From: Segatella cerevisiae
GTDB taxonomy: Bacteria; Bacteroidota; Bacteroidia; Bacteroidales; Bacteroidaceae
Length of the DNA: 64,000 nt
Reading direction: 5' to 3'
Assembly: GCF_024054555.1 (NCBI RefSeq)
Contig: NZ_JAMXLY010000014.1
Coordinates: forward strand, 1 to 64,000
The position numbers and the translations under genes are program-made. Under the pieces are notes generated by a model. That model was not told the origin of the DNA. It saw only the letters and a program-made list of their open reading frames with translations, and did not search any database. Shown one piece after another: positions 15,943 through 46,537 of this stretch; position 1 is the stretch's first letter; each line of letters opens with the position of its first letter.

Positions 15943-15973
15943 TTTGAAATTCAATGATTAAACACTACTTTTG
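15943..15973 (+). promoter_or_regulatory. Promoter of the flippase gene
   Basis: TTTG at 15943-15946 and TACTTTTG at 15966-15973, separated by 19 bp, make a textbook Bacteroidota -33/-7 promoter. Transcription would start near 15980. This rules out a possible TTG start at 15971, which lies inside the -7 box, in favour of the ATG at 15998. Confidence 0.8.
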
Positions 15974-15997
15974 CACTATTCATTTAGCAAACACGCC

Positions 15998-17440
15998 ATG
16001 AGTTCCCTTAAAGAAAAAACTGCCTCAGGCCTATTATGGGCGGCAATGAATAACGGTTGCATGCAAATCTTGAATGCTGTCATCGGCATTTTCCTGGCCA
16101 GATTACTTTTACCAGCAGATTATGGGCTCATCGGGATGCTGACCATATTCAGCGCGATTGCGACGACCTTGCAGGAGAGTGGTTTTACTTCCGCTCTTAC
16201 GAATAAGAAACATCCCACGGACAATGATTACAACTCCGTTTTCTGGTTTTGTAATATCATGGGGATCATCTTGTATATCATCTTGTTTTTCTGTGCTCCG
16301 CTGATTGCGGATTTCTTTCACCAACCTAAACTGATCCTCTTGTCAAGAGTCGACTTCCTGTGCATTCTCCTTTCTGCTCTCGGCATCGTGCCACAGGCCT
16401 ACTTGTATAAGTATCTGATGATCAAACAGACTTCCATCTTGAGAGTGTCTGTTTTGGCATTGTCCGGTGTAGGCGGAATCATCATGGCCTTTTGCGGAAT
16501 GGGGTATTGGAGCATCGTGACACAACAACTCATTTATGTCGGTCTGCAAAGTCTGGGTAAATTTTTCTTCATCCCTTGGAGACCTTCACTGCACATCGAC
16601 TTCCAACCTGTGAAAGAGATGTTCGGTTTCAGCAGTAAGATTCTGATTACCAATGTCATCGGACAAATCAGCGGCAATATTCTGACCGTCATTTTCGGCA
16701 GGATTCTATCGGTCAAGACGGTAGGTAATTTCACACAGGCCAGCAAATGGAATGGGATGGCTTCCTCGACAGTATCGGGAATGATCGCGCAAGTAGCACA
16801 ACCTGTATTTGCTTCCATCCAGGATCAGAAAGACCGGCAATTGAACATTCTGAGGAAAATGATGCGTTTTACTTCTTATCTTGTTTTCCCCGCCATGTTC
16901 GGATTAGCGATCGTTGCCCCCGAATTCATCATTCTCCTGATTTCGGACAAGTGGGCAGACAGTATCCCCATTCTCCAACTCCTCTGCATCAGCGGCGCCA
17001 TGTCACCGCTCTACCTTCCACTTCAGAACCTACTGATCAGTCACGGCAGGTCTGATCTGTTCATGTGGGTCAACATTATCCAGATCATTCTGCAATGTGC
17101 GATTATCCTGGCATTCTCACGCTATGGAATACTTACCATGATCACTGTCTATTCTCTCTTTTACATGGTTTGGACTGTAGCATGGCAAATCCCTCTTAAG
17201 AAGATCATCGGTTATACTTTCTTCAACCTCCTTCAGGACAGTATCCCTTTCATGCTCTCTGCGCTCATCGCGGTAGGCTTGGCTTATGCGGCAACACTGA
17301 CCATCGATAGCCTCATCATCAAACTGATTCTGAAAATCATCATCGCTGTAGCGGTCTATTACCTGATCATGAGGTTCGGACATGCCAAAATCCAAAGGGA
17401 CTGCCTGAACTATGTGTTCCATCGTAAAGGAGGACATTGA
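15998..17440 (+). CDS. Wzx-type polysaccharide/lipid-linked oligosaccharide flippase
   Basis: A 480-residue integral membrane protein of the MOP exporter superfamily that likely moves undecaprenyl-linked repeat units across the inner membrane. It begins with the typical amphipathic segment and first helix (KTASGLLWAAMNNGCMQILNAVIGIFLARLLLP) [read across residues 6-38] and has about 12-14 hydrophobic segments, including a cytosolic YGLIGMLTIFSAIA stretch after helix 1. The start at 15998 follows the promoter evidence; nine upstream codons are rejected. It is the only plus-strand gene of the surface locus and is divergent from the glycosyltransferase. Confidence 0.87.
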   Translation: MSSLKEKTASGLLWAAMNNGCMQILNAVIGIFLARLLLPADYGLIGMLTIFSAIATTLQESGFTSALTNKKHPTDNDYNSVFWFCNIMGIILYIILFFCAPLIADFFHQPKLILLSRVDFLCILLSALGIVPQAYLYKYLMIKQTSILRVSVLALSGVGGIIMAFCGMGYWSIVTQQLIYVGLQSLGKFFFIPWRPSLHIDFQPVKEMFGFSSKILITNVIGQISGNILTVIFGRILSVKTVGNFTQASKWNGMASSTVSGMIAQVAQPVFASIQDQKDRQLNILRKMMRFTSYLVFPAMFGLAIVAPEFIILLISDKWADSIPILQLLCISGAMSPLYLPLQNLLISHGRSDLFMWVNIIQIILQCAIILAFSRYGILTMITVYSLFYMVWTVAWQIPLKKIIGYTFFNLLQDSIPFMLSALIAVGLAYAATLTIDSLIIKLILKIIIAVAVYYLIMRFGHAKIQRDCLNYVFHRKGGH

Positions 17441-17598: not shown

Positions 17599-17675
17599 TT
17601 TCTCGAAACTTGACCGCTTCTTTCGAGAAACAGAGCGCCGACTTTCTCGAAAGTATGAAGTGCTATTTCTCGAGA
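17599..17675. repeat. Regularly spaced 10-bp element array, copy 1
   Basis: Four near-identical elements start at 17599, 17621, 17643 and 17666: TTTCTCGAAA, TTTCGAGAAA, TTTCTCGAAA and TTTCTCGAGA. The first and second are reverse complements, so both orientations occur. Spacing is 22, 22 and 23 bp; the 12-13 bp spacers are unrelated to one another. The pattern is TTTC-N2-GAAA every two helical turns. It occupies the 384-bp gap between two convergent genes (17441-17824), in which no credible coding region is seen. A second array of the same element lies near 44.0 kb. The repeat is too short for CRISPR and no cas gene is present. Confidence 0.85.
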
Positions 17676-17824: not shown

Positions 17825-19261
17825 TTATTGCATCCCCCGCAATAAATAATCGGTTAATTGGATTCCATTATAAAGCCAAAGATAAACTGTCAAAATGATC
17901 AGGAAGATTCTCAAATACTTTCTCGGACCTTCTTGCATGCCTTTTATCAAATAGGCTATTGAGACTGGGATAATGAACGCCCATCCTGACGTCATGATAT
18001 AGACCTCTCCAATACCGAAACCCAAGATCAAATGCAAGGTCACGTCACAGGCGAACCAAGTGAGCAGCATCTGTAGGAATCTGGAATGTATACCCCGCCA
18101 GATTCCACAAACGAACAAACCCACTATCAGTCCTTCTACGATATAATTCAATACCCAGTTATATGCCACGAAGACTGGTCTGTTCCACGACAGATCTTCC
18201 ATCAAATGCTGCTGATGCAACTGGAATGATTCCCCGAAGAAATTCTCTATCAGTGTTTTACCACGAGGAGTTTCAAAATTCATCATACTCGTCAACAGAC
18301 CCTTTCCCGATGATACCACTCCGTGCGAACGCAGCCATTGATTACGACTGGCTTGATGCGCCATGACGTGTACAGAGTCCTTTCTCCATTTTGCCTCTTC
18401 GATCTTATGGATGGCTTCCTGCTGCGGGACCTCCACTGCATGGTATTGGCAGCGTTGTATTCCCAAAAGTAGAGCAAGGGGAAGAACCACGCCCAACAAG
18501 ACATTTTTCCACGTAAAGAAGCGACGGCCGTTTGCAAAGACACCTGCCAGGATGATCTTTGCGCCATTGGTCGCAGAAATTCCGGCAGAGAGGAACACCA
18601 AGACAAAGGACCAGATTGCAGGAAACAGTTTTCCGGTTTTCATCTTCATACCGGCAACATACATCGTCAATGTCAGCAACAGCATCGAAATCACGAAATG
18701 GTCAGGCACCATTGTTGGGATCAACACATGGGCAAATGAAAAAAACAAAAATGTCAGAAGACTGGAATCCGATCTGTTTAATCCTACGACTTCATGGAAC
18801 ACCCGGAACATGAACAGGAAAGAATAAACAGCACAGAAAACCAGTACAACGGCAATCATGAAGACGGTGAGGTTCACTCCCGTCAAATGAATTAACGTAT
18901 GATCGAGTAAATAAAACGGGTACAGTATCGTCATCAGCAGAGGGTGGCGGATGGTCTCAAAATGGATACGCCACCCGGAAGCAGCAATCCACGACCAACA
19001 GTCATATCCCGACATCTGGAAATGCTTATAGAAAATGGTGTAAAACCCGCCCTTTGCTCCTAAAGTATAAAGTTTGAAATGACTTGCTATGACCAGAGCA
19101 TTGAAGAAAGTAAATATCAACAAACTTACTACCGCCAACCAGCATTCATCCCTTCGAATCTTGAATATTTTAATCAGGTTGTCAGATTTCCACGAATGGG
19201 AGCAGGCAAGAGCCGATCGATCTCCAAGATTTGATTTACTGTTTCTCTTTATAACGTTCAC
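17825..19261 (-). CDS. Multispanning membrane protein, tandem paralogue 1 of 3
   Basis: A 478-residue integral membrane protein with about ten hydrophobic segments. It shares with the next two genes a cytosolic N-terminus (KIFRIRRDE-like), a short loop after the first helix containing HFQMSGYD (FHVSGFDP in the paralogues), IRHPLL after it, VPDHFVISMLLL in the middle, a large soluble loop ending FGESFQLHQQHLMED, and a helix starting NYIVEGLIVGLF. The layout resembles GT-C membrane glycosyltransferases, which use polyprenyl-phosphate sugars, but no diagnostic motif proves this. It may belong to a Bacteroidota family of unknown function. It is the most diverged of the three and is the last gene in a long minus-strand run. 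Confidence 0.8.
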   Translation of the reverse strand: MNVIKRNSKSNLGDRSALACSHSWKSDNLIKIFKIRRDECWLAVVSLLIFTFFNALVIASHFKLYTLGAKGGFYTIFYKHFQMSGYDCWSWIAASGWRIHFETIRHPLLMTILYPFYLLDHTLIHLTGVNLTVFMIAVVLVFCAVYSFLFMFRVFHEVVGLNRSDSSLLTFLFFSFAHVLIPTMVPDHFVISMLLLTLTMYVAGMKMKTGKLFPAIWSFVLVFLSAGISATNGAKIILAGVFANGRRFFTWKNVLLGVVLPLALLLGIQRCQYHAVEVPQQEAIHKIEEAKWRKDSVHVMAHQASRNQWLRSHGVVSSGKGLLTSMMNFETPRGKTLIENFFGESFQLHQQHLMEDLSWNRPVFVAYNWVLNYIVEGLIVGLFVCGIWRGIHSRFLQMLLTWFACDVTLHLILGFGIGEVYIMTSGWAFIIPVSIAYLIKGMQEGPRKYLRIFLIILTVYLWLYNGIQLTDYLLRGMQ

Positions 19262-31900: not shown

Positions 31901-31922
31901 AACTGTCTCATACCGGAATAGT

Positions 31923-31975
31923 GGTGATAGGGACAACACAACTGGTGGTAGTGACAAGACAACTGGTGACAGAAC
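31923..31975 (+). repeat. Imperfect 21-bp tandem repeat
   Basis: Two 21-bp units beginning GGTGATAGGGACAAC and GGTGGTAGTGACAAG, both ending ACAACT, are followed by a partial third starting GGTGACAGAACAG. The units lie between the tsaB stop and the next gene and are not part of either frame used. Confidence 0.7.
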
Positions 31976-42419: not shown

Positions 42420-43766
42420 ATGGGAAATCCAAAAGTATTTTTAACTATACCGAGAAAAGAAGCCGGTTACAGACCAGTTCACGACCGAATACATGATTTC
42501 GGGGAAGTGGAACAGACTTTGAACAGCAATGACCGCCAGTTACAGGCATCCCGATGCATGGACTGTGGTGTCCCTTTTTGCAATTGGTCCTGCCCTTTGG
42601 ACAATAAGATTCCGGAATGGAATGACGCTGTCTATAAAGGTGACTGGCAGTTGGCTTATAAGATCCTGACCTCCACCAATGACTTTCCTGAGTTTACAGG
42701 ACGCATTTGTCCGGGCCTATGCGAAAAGGCGTGTGTATTGAACCTCATGCTTCATGAGCCGACCACGAACAGGGAAAACGAGTGTGCCATCGTAGAGCAT
42801 GCTTTCGAAGAGAATTTCGTCCAGCCCAATATCCCTGAACGCAATGGGATGAAGGTGTGTGTCATAGGCGCAGGACCTGCAGGTTTATCCGCTGCAACGC
42901 GATTGAATCAGGCCGGTTATCAGGTGACCGTACTCGAAGCTCGTGAAAACAATGGCGGGCTGCTGCGCTTCGGCATTCCGAATTTCAAACTGAACAAGGA
43001 GATCATTGACCGCAGGATCAAGATTCTTGAGAAGGAAGGGATCGTATTCAAATACAATCAGAAAATAGACACGACTAAACTCCCCGGGAATTATGATGCG
43101 TACGTCATCGCAACGGGAACACCGGTCGCACGTGACATGAAAGTACCGGGCAGAGACCTGGACGGCATCTATTTGGCACTGCAATTGCTGTCCCAGCAGA
43201 ACCGTGTCCTTGCCGGACAGGAATTCAGCAAAGAAGAACGCATTACAGGAAAAGGAAAAGACGTGCTTGTCATCGGCGGCGGCGATACCGGATCGGATTG
43301 TATCGGAACCGTTCACAGGCAAGGTGCCAAGAGCGTGACGCAAATAGAGATCATGCCCAAACCGCCTGTAGGTCCTGAAGATCCCAAGAATCCTTGGCCG
43401 AATTGGCCGAGAACATTGAAGGTCACTTCAAGTCATGAAGAAGGCTGTACACGGCGATGGAACATCAACACTTTGGAATTCCTCGGCAAGAACGGCAAAC
43501 TGACGGGTGTTAAGGTCCAACCCATCACATGGGTGCCTAATCCTGAGGGAGGACGCCCACTAATGAAACCTGCAGGCGAACCTGAGATCATCAAGGCGCA
43601 AATGGTCCTGCTGGCAATGGGATTCCTCCGGCCACAGCAACCTGATTTTGCAAAGAATGTGTTTGTTGCAGGTGATGCTGCCAGCGGTGCGTCATTGGTC
43701 GTACGGGCTATGGCCAGTGGCCGTGAAGCAGCGGAGAAAGTAGACGCATTTCTGCAGAAGAAGTAA
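42420..43766 (+). CDS. gltD: Glutamate synthase small subunit
   Basis: Supplies electrons from NAD(P)H through FAD and two [4Fe-4S] clusters to the large subunit. The 448-residue protein has the N-terminal cluster motifs CMDCGVPFCNWSCPLDN and CPGLCEKAC, the FAD motif GAGPAGLSAATRL near residue 150 and the NAD(P)H motif GGGDTGSD near residue 285. The C-terminal FVAGDAASGASLVVRAM closes the FAD site. A strong terminator lies 85 bp downstream. Confidence 0.97.
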   Translation: MGNPKVFLTIPRKEAGYRPVHDRIHDFGEVEQTLNSNDRQLQASRCMDCGVPFCNWSCPLDNKIPEWNDAVYKGDWQLAYKILTSTNDFPEFTGRICPGLCEKACVLNLMLHEPTTNRENECAIVEHAFEENFVQPNIPERNGMKVCVIGAGPAGLSAATRLNQAGYQVTVLEARENNGGLLRFGIPNFKLNKEIIDRRIKILEKEGIVFKYNQKIDTTKLPGNYDAYVIATGTPVARDMKVPGRDLDGIYLALQLLSQQNRVLAGQEFSKEERITGKGKDVLVIGGGDTGSDCIGTVHRQGAKSVTQIEIMPKPPVGPEDPKNPWPNWPRTLKVTSSHEEGCTRRWNINTLEFLGKNGKLTGVKVQPITWVPNPEGGRPLMKPAGEPEIIKAQMVLLAMGFLRPQQPDFAKNVFVAGDAASGASLVVRAMASGREAAEKVDAFLQKK

Positions 43767-43850
43767 GCAGAATATGACTTTTGCATAAAAACTCAAATAG
43801 AGACGGATTGTTGCTGTCAAAAAAGGCTGCATCAATCAGATAGAGAAAAG

Positions 43851-43891
43851 GCCATTGACAACCCCATGAGGGTGTGCCAATGGCTTTTTTA
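43851..43891 (+). terminator. Intrinsic terminator after gltD
   Basis: Outer stem GCCATTG (43851-43857) with CAATGGC (43878-43884), inner ACCC/GGGT stem, then a run of T. It closes the gltBD operon. Confidence 0.85.
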
Positions 43892-43951
43892 TTTTCAGGA
43901 AACGCCCTCACCAATTTTTCTTCAAGTATAAATCTACAACCGATTCAGGGG

Positions 43952-44094
43952 GTTCGGAAAGGTCTAATCTACCCTTCGAGAAAGGGAGGTTCTACCATTC
44001 GAGAAAGGCAGGCCCTTGTTTCGAGAAAGTCAGCGCTCTCTTTCTCGAAAGATAAAATCGTTTTTCGAGAAAGGCTTTCGGCGCCTTTTCGCTG
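43952..44094. repeat. Regularly spaced 10-bp element array, copy 2
   Basis: Clear elements start at 43974, 43997, 44019, 44041 and 44063: CTTCGAGAAA, ATTCGAGAAA, TTTCGAGAAA, TTTCTCGAAA and TTTCGAGAAA. Spacing is 23, 22, 22 and 22 bp. Degenerate copies fit the same phase at 43952 (GTTCGGAAAG) and 44085 (CTTTTCGCTG). Spacers are 12-13 bp and unrelated. Four of five point one way and one (44041) is inverted. It fills much of the 518-bp gap between gltD and the phosphate transporter, after the gltD terminator and before the transporter promoter. This is the same element and the same period as the array near 17.6 kb. Confidence 0.87.
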
Positions 44095-44284: not shown

Positions 44285-46537
44285 ATGATGAGTATCATTT
44301 ATTTGTGCATGATCATATTTCTATTATGCCTTGCTCTATTCGATCTTTCAGTCGGTGTAAGCAATGATGCGGTCAACTTTCTGCAGCCGTCTATCGGGGC
44401 CAGGGCAGTGAAGTTTAGGACGATGATGATCGTTGCCTCATGTGGCGTAATAGTAGGGGCTATGTTGTCATCGGGAATGATAGATATCGCCAGGAACGGG
44501 ATCATGATGCCGGCTCAATTCTCTTTTAAGGATGTGATGATCATCTTTCTTGCCGTCATGGTAACAGATGTCATAGCTTTGGATGCCTTCAACTCATTGG
44601 GATTGCCTACCTCTACGACAGTTTCCATCGTGTTTGACTTGCTCGGAGGGACTTTTGCTCTGTCGACCATTAAGGTAATCTCCGACAGTTCTCTGTCTTA
44701 TAATACCCTGCTCAATTCCGGCAAAGCATTGAATATCATCATCGCGCTGTTCGTCTCTGTGGTGATTGCCTTCGTTCTCGGTCTAATCGTCATGTGGGTG
44801 GCACGAATTTTATTTACTTTCAGTTATAAGAAACATCTCAAATATATCATCGCCGTTTTCGGCGGTCTCGCGTTTACCGTCCTCGCCTATTTCATCTTCT
44901 TCAAAGGTCTGAGAACAAGTCCCTATTGTTCTGAATCATCTGGTAATTTTATAGAAGCCCATACGCTGTGGTTGCTTCCCGTTACCTTCGTCGTATCTAC
45001 AATCGTCATAGAACTTCTCCATCTGCTGCACGTCAATATTTTCAAGTTGATCGTGCTCTTTGGGACTTTTGCGCTGGCACTGGCTTTCACGAGGAATGAT
45101 CTCGTCAACTTTATCGGCGTTCCCCTTGCAGGATTAAGTTCCTATCAGGACTTCATGAACAATGCCCACAACATAACTCCATCGGATTTTATGATGAACA
45201 CCCTGACGCCCAATGTCAAGACACCGCCACTCTATCTGCTCATCGCCGGCATCATCATGCTCATTGCTATGGGCAGGTCGCAGAGAGTACAGAAGGTCAT
45301 CCAGACTTCCGTCGATTTATCCAGGCAGGATGAAGGGGATGAGATGTTCGGCAGTTCCAAAACTGCCCGGGCCCTGGTCCGCTTCACGCAGAACACGGGG
45401 AATACTCTCAACCGGTTTGTTCCTACCCCACTGAAGAATTGGATCAGTTCCCGCTTTGACAAAGACAATATCATCCTATCAGATGACAAGGCTGCCTTTG
45501 ATCTCGTCAGGGCATCGGTCAATCTGGTCTTGAGCGCCGTATTGATCACGATCGGGACCAACTGCAAATTGCCGCTTTCGACCACCTATATTGCTTTTAT
45601 GGTTGCTATGGGCACTTCTCTCGCAGACCGGGCGTGGAGTCGTGATACGGCAGTTTTCCGTGTGACGGGTGTCCTGAGTGTCATCGGGGGCTGGTTCATT
45701 ACCGCAGGCGCCGCCTTCATCATAACGGGTCTGGTATGTCTGCTGATGTATTTCGGGGGCTTTCCTGTACAACTCCTTTTCGTGGTTCTTATCGTTTTCC
45801 AAATCATCCGTTCCAACCGCAAACCTGTCAGCAAGGAGAAAACGCAGAACCAGGATGAGGATTCTTTCAGACTGATGATGCGTGTCAGGGATCCGGAGCT
45901 GGTCTGGGATATCTTAAAGAAACATGTCAGCCGGACCCAAAGTCACGAGAACCGCTTTGCGCTGAAAGAGTATAATCAGATCATGAACGGACTGGCAAAT
46001 GAAGATATGAAAGGTCTTCAGCATGCGGATAAAGAGTTGAAGAGCGAACAGAACAATTTGAAGAAATACAGACGCCAGGAGATGCTTGGACTGAAGAGGA
46101 GCCCGCAGGATATTGCCATTGAGCGGAACACCTGGCTCCACTTGGGAGCCAACGCTAACCAGCAATTCCTCTATAGCCTGAGACGGATGCTCGATCCGAT
46201 CAAGGAGCATGTGGACAACAGTTTCAGTCCGCTACCGGCCAATTATGTCCAGGAATTTCTGCCGATGCTGCAGCATATCAATGACTTGATGAAAAATACG
46301 GAGGCCGAGATTTCTGAAGGGCATTATCATAATTACCGGGAGATACTGGCTGAAGCTGACGAATGTAAGGATGAACTTGCCATCCTCCGCAAGAAACACC
46401 TCAAACGGATACAGGAGGGTGATACCAGTCAGATGCAGATCAATCTGCTCTATCTCAACATCCTGCAGGAGAGTCAGGAATTCCTGAGTGTGATGCGACA
46501 CCAACTCAGGGCTGCCAAGAGATTCATGGAAAACTGA
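44285..46537 (+). CDS. PiT-family inorganic phosphate transporter with C-terminal PhoU-like domain
   Basis: A 750-residue inner-membrane low-affinity phosphate permease. The two PiT signature repeats are visible: GVSNDAVNFLQPSIGARAV in the first helix pair, and a second copy around residues 430-455 (TIGTNCKLPLSTTYIAFMVAMG). The GLPTSTTVS and LPLSTTYIA loops bind phosphate. After about residue 520 a cytosolic helical extension of some 230 residues resembles PhoU-type bundles, seen in many Bacteroidota homologues. A shorter start two codons in is possible. Length is greater than PitA because of the extension. Confidence 0.85.
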   Translation: MMSIIYLCMIIFLLCLALFDLSVGVSNDAVNFLQPSIGARAVKFRTMMIVASCGVIVGAMLSSGMIDIARNGIMMPAQFSFKDVMIIFLAVMVTDVIALDAFNSLGLPTSTTVSIVFDLLGGTFALSTIKVISDSSLSYNTLLNSGKALNIIIALFVSVVIAFVLGLIVMWVARILFTFSYKKHLKYIIAVFGGLAFTVLAYFIFFKGLRTSPYCSESSGNFIEAHTLWLLPVTFVVSTIVIELLHLLHVNIFKLIVLFGTFALALAFTRNDLVNFIGVPLAGLSSYQDFMNNAHNITPSDFMMNTLTPNVKTPPLYLLIAGIIMLIAMGRSQRVQKVIQTSVDLSRQDEGDEMFGSSKTARALVRFTQNTGNTLNRFVPTPLKNWISSRFDKDNIILSDDKAAFDLVRASVNLVLSAVLITIGTNCKLPLSTTYIAFMVAMGTSLADRAWSRDTAVFRVTGVLSVIGGWFITAGAAFIITGLVCLLMYFGGFPVQLLFVVLIVFQIIRSNRKPVSKEKTQNQDEDSFRLMMRVRDPELVWDILKKHVSRTQSHENRFALKEYNQIMNGLANEDMKGLQHADKELKSEQNNLKKYRRQEMLGLKRSPQDIAIERNTWLHLGANANQQFLYSLRRMLDPIKEHVDNSFSPLPANYVQEFLPMLQHINDLMKNTEAEISEGHYHNYREILAEADECKDELAILRKKHLKRIQEGDTSQMQINLLYLNILQESQEFLSVMRHQLRAAKRFMEN

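Follow-up and report, generated by a model that had tools for sequence, protein, structure and literature searches.

Dispersed 22-bp phased palindrome arrays near gene 3' ends in Segatella cerevisiae, with a dyad design kept across seven species: candidate docking sites for a DNA-binding protein

What kind of element is the run of short palindromes that stands between a gltD-like gene and a phosphate transporter gene of Segatella cerevisiae, and what might keep such elements in a genome? Extragenic palindromes have been known for decades, and what maintains them is unsettled. The locus lies in a stretch of 64,000 nucleotides (positions 1 to 64,000 of contig NZ_JAMXLY010000014.1), hereafter the window, where an initial annotation made from the letters alone had described five clear and two degenerate copies of one element in a 22-23 bp phase. 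The array proper occupies 43974-44073 and consists of five cores of the form TTTC(TC/GA)GAAA. A stretch of the window counted as a core when nine or more of its ten letters agreed with TTTCTCGAAA or with the reverse complement. The array, its setting and a second array of the same window are as follows:

42420..43766, + strand: gltD-like gene (Fer4_20, Pyr_redox_2), upstream; its stop is about 207 bp before the array
43846..43894, + strand: terminator-like hairpin with T run (-19.1 kcal/mol, T run near 43887), after gltD and upstream of the array
43974..43983, + strand: core 1, CTTCGAGAAA, 9/10
43997..44006, + strand: core 2, ATTCGAGAAA, 9/10, 23 bp after core 1
44019..44028, + strand: core 3, TTTCGAGAAA, exact, 22 bp after core 2
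44041..44050, - strand: core 4, exact, inverted, 22 bp after core 3
44063..44072, + strand: core 5, exact, 22 bp after core 4
44285..46537, + strand: PHO4-type phosphate transporter gene, downstream of the array
17599-17675, no strand assigned: the other array of the window, with four cores (17599, 17621, 17643, 17666) and the same period

The five clear copies and their phase are borne out by shuffling. The longest phased chain is five cores in the window and one in each of 60 dinucleotide shuffles, none of which put two cores in phase, and TTCGAGAAAG occurs in six exact copies against 0.25 expected, with six or more in 0 of 100 shuffles. The two degenerate end copies, at 43952 (6/10) and 44085 (5/10), are at chance level, 6/10 or better being reached at 4.5% of window positions. 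The hairpin after gltD was called by a folding script; a simpler terminator scan listed none near gltD. The second array sits between convergent genes (15971-17440, + strand, and 17825-19261, - strand). The gltB of S. cerevisiae shares 71% identity with the Bacteroides finegoldii gene. The transporter gene at 44285-46537 has a 72% identical paralogue at G000:C26:12512-14758, about 5 kb from another array (C26:7157). The window also holds 2.3 copies of a 21-bp tandem repeat, TGGTGATAGGGACAACACAAC, at 31922-31969, with a sequence unlike that of the arrays.

The S. cerevisiae genome (3,288,379 bases in 116 contigs) has 56 places that match the pair pattern TTTCKMGAAASN{9,11}STTTCKMGAAA, and the same pattern read backwards gives no match. 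With cores counted at 8/10 or better, 33 arrays account for 55 of the 56 places; eight contain three cores, 18 contain four and seven contain five, and successive cores are 22 bp apart in 73 cases, 23 bp in 19, 24 bp in three and 25 bp in three. The earlier suggestion of a genome-wide system, which was to fall if no further arrays were present, is thus supported, there being 33 in total, far above chance and mostly near gene 3' ends. Elsewhere the pattern found no match, either in 300 further genomes of the family or in 397 of the genus; the two sets overlap, and among the 398 genomes of the genus only that of S. cerevisiae has it. DNA searches of plasmids and phages returned no match to the array region. 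A phage or plasmid origin was rejected: the sole viral-contig match (L313) carries TTTCTAGAAA cores and looks like chance.

The repeat unit is a 10-bp core plus a 12-bp variable spacer, making 22 bp. Over 131 units, information per base is 1.36-1.92 bits in the cores and 0-0.9 bits in the spacers, the core values being inflated because the arrays were found by their cores. Each core is palindromic except at its centre, which is asymmetric and can point either way, neighbouring cores being opposite in 54 cases and the same in 44 (p 0.36). The initial picture of one element repeated in phase is corrected in this respect: the palindromic core flips freely. A head-to-tail minisatellite was discarded at this level, Tandem Repeats Finder giving only 2.6 units because core orientation flips. 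Two palindromes alternating every 11 bp were discarded as well, as such alternation is a necessary result of a palindrome with a 22-bp period and a control shows the same.

As a whole, the usual element is dyad-symmetric, with three palindromic cores 22 bp apart, TAG and CTA as bounds, and half-sites that follow outward at 23-bp steps. The TAG mark is found in 25 of the 33 arrays and the CTA mark in 20, and the span from TAG-core to core-CTA is 44 (three cores) in 14 of the 15 arrays with both. Thirty arrays are centred on the three-core dyad, some by one end mark only; the array at 43974, which has no TAG/CTA ends, is among the three without an assignable centre. In the dyad-centred arrays, information is highest at the centre and declines outward. 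Half-site positions were numbered from the first base of the boundary core in 45 halves. In the first outward rung, which in some halves partly consists of further full cores, T stands at +24, +25 and +26 in 39, 37 and 41 halves, respectively (p down to 2e-15), and in the second rung at +47, +48 and +49 in 32, 30 and 27 (p down to 4e-7); a third rung, at +89 from the dyad, is only suggestive. Outward of the boundary core, A is enriched at +16, +17, +31 and +39. A TTT periodogram of the flanks has its best periods at 12 and 26.5 bp, not 23 bp, and the half-site claim therefore rests on the position-wise counts. In these outward sites the near arm is well kept and the far arm mostly lost, the far-arm base at +31 nonetheless being enriched. 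Were whole copies simply decaying, loss of the far arm with the near arm kept would not be predicted. We infer that the centre acts as the anchor and that the half-sites grow weaker step by step away from it, as for a centre-nucleated protein assembly.

To place the arrays relative to genes, neighbours were called at ORF cut-offs of 130 and 160 aa, a cut-off of 70 aa having placed 14 of the 33 arrays inside spurious ORFs; at 130 aa, three arrays without a neighbour were left out (n = 30). Seventeen of these lie between convergent genes, 12 between genes of the same direction and one between divergent genes, compared with 22, 67 and 22, respectively, of 111 comparison intergenic regions of 150-1500 bp (Fisher's test: convergent excess, p 1.6e-4; divergent deficit, p 0.028). 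A master-regulator site, one of the roles first proposed, is unlikely because only 1 of 30 arrays has a divergent setting. Among the regions of six relatives, a convergent setting is seen for 20 of the 56 with an array and 68 of the 374 without (p 0.004); divergent regions are not significantly avoided there (9/56 versus 86/374, p 0.30), and in one relative, G413, none of the six array-bearing regions is convergent. A convergent bias is also expected of a harmless insertion.

At the loci open to comparison, array positions turn over between species. The genes flanking the S. cerevisiae arrays were matched at 60% identity or better in the sampled relatives, which gave 12 orthologous flanks (736-900 bp facing) from nine of the 33 arrays. 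None of the 12 carries a 22-bp array, and in one of them a 7-base stretch recurs once at 22 bp; as arrays occupy 13% of the relatives' regions (56/430), this result excludes strong, not weak, conservation of place. In the relative G150, about 90 bp separate gltD from the phosphate transporter gene, and no array stands between them; the distance in S. cerevisiae is 518 bp. The likely G150 orthologues of the genes beside the array at 17599-17675 (55% and 46% identical, below the 60% cut-off) are about 57 bp apart, again with no array. Arrays have thus been gained or lost between species, and no single array seems to be needed where it stands.

The spacing itself is found more widely than the letters. 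Relatives were sampled in evenly spaced stretches (400 kb each from G342, G150 and G314, 140 kb each from G357 and G380, and 120 kb from G413), and in all six, direct repeats at 22 and 44 bp are in excess in intergenic DNA. This peak is sharp in G150, G314, G357 and G380; other distances are raised too in G342 (14 and 21 bp) and in G413 (14, 16, 24 and 32 bp). Counts at 22 bp per 10 kb range from 15 to 57 in intergenic DNA versus 0.09-0.25 in coding DNA of the six relatives, and are 11 and 0.08, respectively, in S. cerevisiae, where the stretches were partly chosen for holding arrays and the density is biased accordingly. In 400 kb drawn from ten genomes of the phylum used as outgroup, none was found at 22 bp and one at 44 bp. 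Array-bearing intergenic regions number 56 of 430 in the six relatives versus 1 of 108 in the outgroup (p 3e-5). The array lists behind such counts were drawn up at different thresholds and vary in number; some of their entries are AT-rich or 21-bp stretches rather than clear arrays, and the outgroup figure is 0 arrays under one list's threshold and 1 of 108 regions under another's.

The letters differ from species to species, the units read by eye being centred around TTGACGCAA in G314, AAATTGGGCGAATTT in G357, TCTAGCCCCTAGA in G413 and TTTTGCnnnGCAAAA in G380. Dyad symmetry nonetheless exceeds a control that preserves the 22-bp period in all seven sets, for example 6.30 versus 5.75 (sd 0.10) in S. 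cerevisiae and 8.00 versus 6.02 (sd 0.21) in G150; it is weakest in G342, at 6.50 versus 5.94 (sd 0.27), or about 2 sd. The arrays of G380 are copies of one intergenic repeat of about 200 bp, internally phased at 22 bp (L321-L327, e.g. L322:2412-2501), with 15 clusters in 140 kb and 18 matches when a looser seed is used. This repeat is best conserved in its middle, and the dyad pairs 65% of 57 constrained positions. Fixed-order copies of one longer repeat fit plain copying too. Over the seven species examined, the spacing and the dyad symmetry are kept as letters and places change.

Farther afield, the open pattern TTTCNNGAAA, required in three phased copies, was searched in genome contigs and matched at least 102 stretches, which are pattern-selected and serve as leads only. 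Fifty-five of the at least 102 were rejected as members of the same system, being 21-bp repeats inside ORFs and, by eye, apparently coiled-coil heptads; among the matches listed, 39 lie outside ORFs, with periods of 21-23 bp or mixed, and eight lie inside ORFs with other periods. Tandem repeats of 21 bp whose unit resembles TTTCAGGAAACCGACCGCAAG occur in several phyla (L081, L111, L131, L173 and others) and are alike at the DNA level in distant bacteria; among the matches listed, 55 of the 72 stretches with an even 21-bp period lie inside ORFs. Also among the matches listed, three contigs of the Tannerellaceae MAG Kf353_bin89 each carry a 22-bp phased TTTC(GA/AA/CC/GG)GAAA array (L094:7080-7133, L096:5605-5658 and L137:15-68) with spacers of the type GATGCATACTC; two of these arrays are outside ORFs and one is inside a 101-aa ORF. 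Their design is similar to that of the S. cerevisiae arrays, and the genome is labelled as another family. Contigs L090, L124 and L139 of Ruminococcus MAGs, among the same matches, carry 22-bp phased TTTC(AC/AT/GT)GAAA arrays outside ORFs.

Several explanations compete for these observations. Tandem hairpins in 3' untranslated RNA, stabilising messages or ending transcription, would suit arrays that lie near gene 3' ends, and three strands of the two window arrays do fold modestly better than expected (z -1.6, -2.0 and -2.4). Such an RNA element is nevertheless very improbable: no pairing orientation is kept between neighbouring cores, random core flips leave folding unchanged over the 33 arrays (p 0.23), and exchange of spacers between arrays strengthens it (-35.1 versus -33.0, p 0.004). 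Moreover, of the 47 three-prime-facing flanks, 18 have a terminator-like hairpin after the gene and before the array by the folding script, that of gltD among them; no such hairpin lies inside an array and two follow one (only 60 bases were searched after the array), and no Rfam covariance model matches the arrays. These 18 hairpins also bear on transcription insulation after a terminator, another of the roles first proposed. Tandem duplication and slippage of a fortuitous 22-bp unit with no function could account for the longer arrays with gradual unit drift seen by eye in G342 and G314. We consider this origin improbable in view of the narrow size range of the S. cerevisiae arrays (three to five cores), the flips of core orientation, spacers that vary while cores stay, and a period common to different species that do not have the letters in common.

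The main rival is a purely selfish REP- or MITE-like repeat, copied in trans, in which the palindromes are enzyme sites, insertion is tolerated at gene ends and the host gains no function; we regard it as quite possible, while leaning away from it. Species-specific letters, dispersed copies, the lack of arrays at the compared orthologous flanks, TAG/CTA ends in many copies and the long copied repeat of G380 all fit it. Terminal inverted repeats are the conserved part of a MITE. Here conservation falls from the centre outward and the ends are least conserved, the opposite of that expectation, and an ordinary MITE fits poorly, the more so as the BrickBuilt inverted end (see below) is not enriched. 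Target site duplication was not found in 15 two-ended arrays (1.07 versus 0.78 +- 0.30), the boundaries of which are uncertain, and the persistence of the 22-bp dyad design through the change of letters also speaks against the selfish repeat. The Y1 (IS200-like) transposase, PF01797, has no match in the S. cerevisiae genome (99.43% complete); it is present in six of nine relatives and missing from G150, G380 and G343, in the last of which one array was seen. RAYT-driven REPs were rejected on these absences. According to the part of the REP literature drawn on here, RAYT-type transposase genes may be lost after REP dispersal (PMC3733652), so that their absence today leaves a past Y1 role conceivable.

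With the RNA, MITE and RAYT readings fitting poorly, helically phased recognition of double-stranded DNA, combined with dispersal, is what remains. The reading that we prefer, with slightly less than even confidence, is of dispersed BIME-like arrays of double-stranded DNA on which a putative multimeric protein docks in a topological or nucleoid role. Each array would be a copy of an extragenic element that is dispersed in the genome and specific to its species. The element would act at the level of double-stranded DNA, offering this putative DNA-binding protein sites for docking and wrapping. The 22-bp step would correspond to two helical turns and place the palindromes on one face of the DNA, where the protein could anchor at the central palindromes and extend outward. 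Near gene 3' ends, and especially between convergent genes, it might, like BIMEs, help with supercoil management or with bridging and organising the nucleoid; nucleoid organisation, which the initial annotation had listed, is kept among the possible roles. Copies would be dispersed within each species, their letters and positions turning over with the 22-bp dyad design retained. Positive supercoils gather at gene 3' ends. This, together with the enrichment of DNA gyrase downstream of transcribed units and in BIME-2 that is described for E. coli in the available part of one report (PMC6379681), leads us to prefer a topological or nucleoid role.

A broader proposal, which we think rather unlikely, is a genus-wide chromosome-organising system in which 22-bp phased dyad arrays and a putative protein that binds them evolve together and fast, with letters and positions peculiar to each species and the nucleoprotein geometry constant; central palindromes, outward half-sites and a length of about 140-200 bp would form that common geometry. 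Were it true, the arrays would be a bacterial counterpart of fast-evolving centromeres or of PRDM9-type pairs of site and protein. A kept geometry set against drifting sequence helps to tell apart what may be selected from what drifts, and the question is testable, as each species supplies its own bait DNA for pulling out a partner.

In kind, the array is a repetitive extragenic palindrome array. That no described family fits, as was first stated, is right only in part: elements of a similar kind are PINSR (PMC4755523), BrickBuilt (PMC4596501) and REP/BIMEs (PMC3733652), and none of them, as far as the available parts of these reports go, fits fully. Relative to those descriptions, the new features are the fixed 22-bp step, the dyad and half-site ladder at the level of the array, and a design kept while letters and places turn over. 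Titles and abstract openings of the open-licence literature yielded no description of 22-bp phased arrays across a genus. The DNA gyrase motif, as given in part of its report, has a central part and two periodic flanks, from -63 to +66, with helically phased G/C content (PMC6379681); it is degenerate and phased at 10 bp, whereas the cores described here are sharp, 22 bp apart and different between species.

BIMEs and GTAG-REPs, in the portion of their description consulted (PMC3733652), are grouped short palindromes that point either way, lie downstream of genes and between convergent ones, and occur in many copies, in some cases species-specific. The S. cerevisiae arrays are likewise dispersed extragenic palindromes, often in opposite orientation and downstream of genes. 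On the GTAG tag that marks one end of a GTAG-REP palindrome, the arrays give a mixed picture, with GTAG before a core in 16 of the 33 and CTAC after a core in 11. They differ in their strict 22-bp phase, array-level dyad and half-site ladder, and in the lack of a detected Y1 transposase. BrickBuilt, a minisatellite MITE of Porphyromonas gingivalis, is similarly intergenic, species-limited and of the same phylum; in the available part of its description it is built of 23-nt tandem units without spacers, with a leader and a tail bearing IS5-type inverted ends, GAGACCTTTGCA (PMC4596501), unlike our cores with their variable spacers. Within 150 bp of the S. cerevisiae arrays this end is not enriched (mean 7.94/12, largest 10; one shuffle per flank, 7.85, largest 9).

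The closest published repeat is PINSR of Prevotella intermedia, which the part of the report available here describes as a 188-bp intergenic element with 177 and 184 copies in two strains, about three quarters of the places being common to both, confined to a few related species and, according to its authors, without terminal inverted repeats (PMC4755523). Its intergenic place, high copy number and restriction to a lineage may be points in common with our arrays, and its length and abundance recall the G380 element, which is possibly PINSR and whose core differs from that of S. cerevisiae. The comparison is one of description: that part of the report mentions neither 22-bp phasing nor a dyad (PMC4755523), whereas the S. 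cerevisiae arrays, intergenic, in 33 copies and in one genome of 398, are dyad-symmetric with TAG/CTA ends. PINSR, reported for one Prevotella group, may nevertheless belong with the arrays described here to the same wider class of element.
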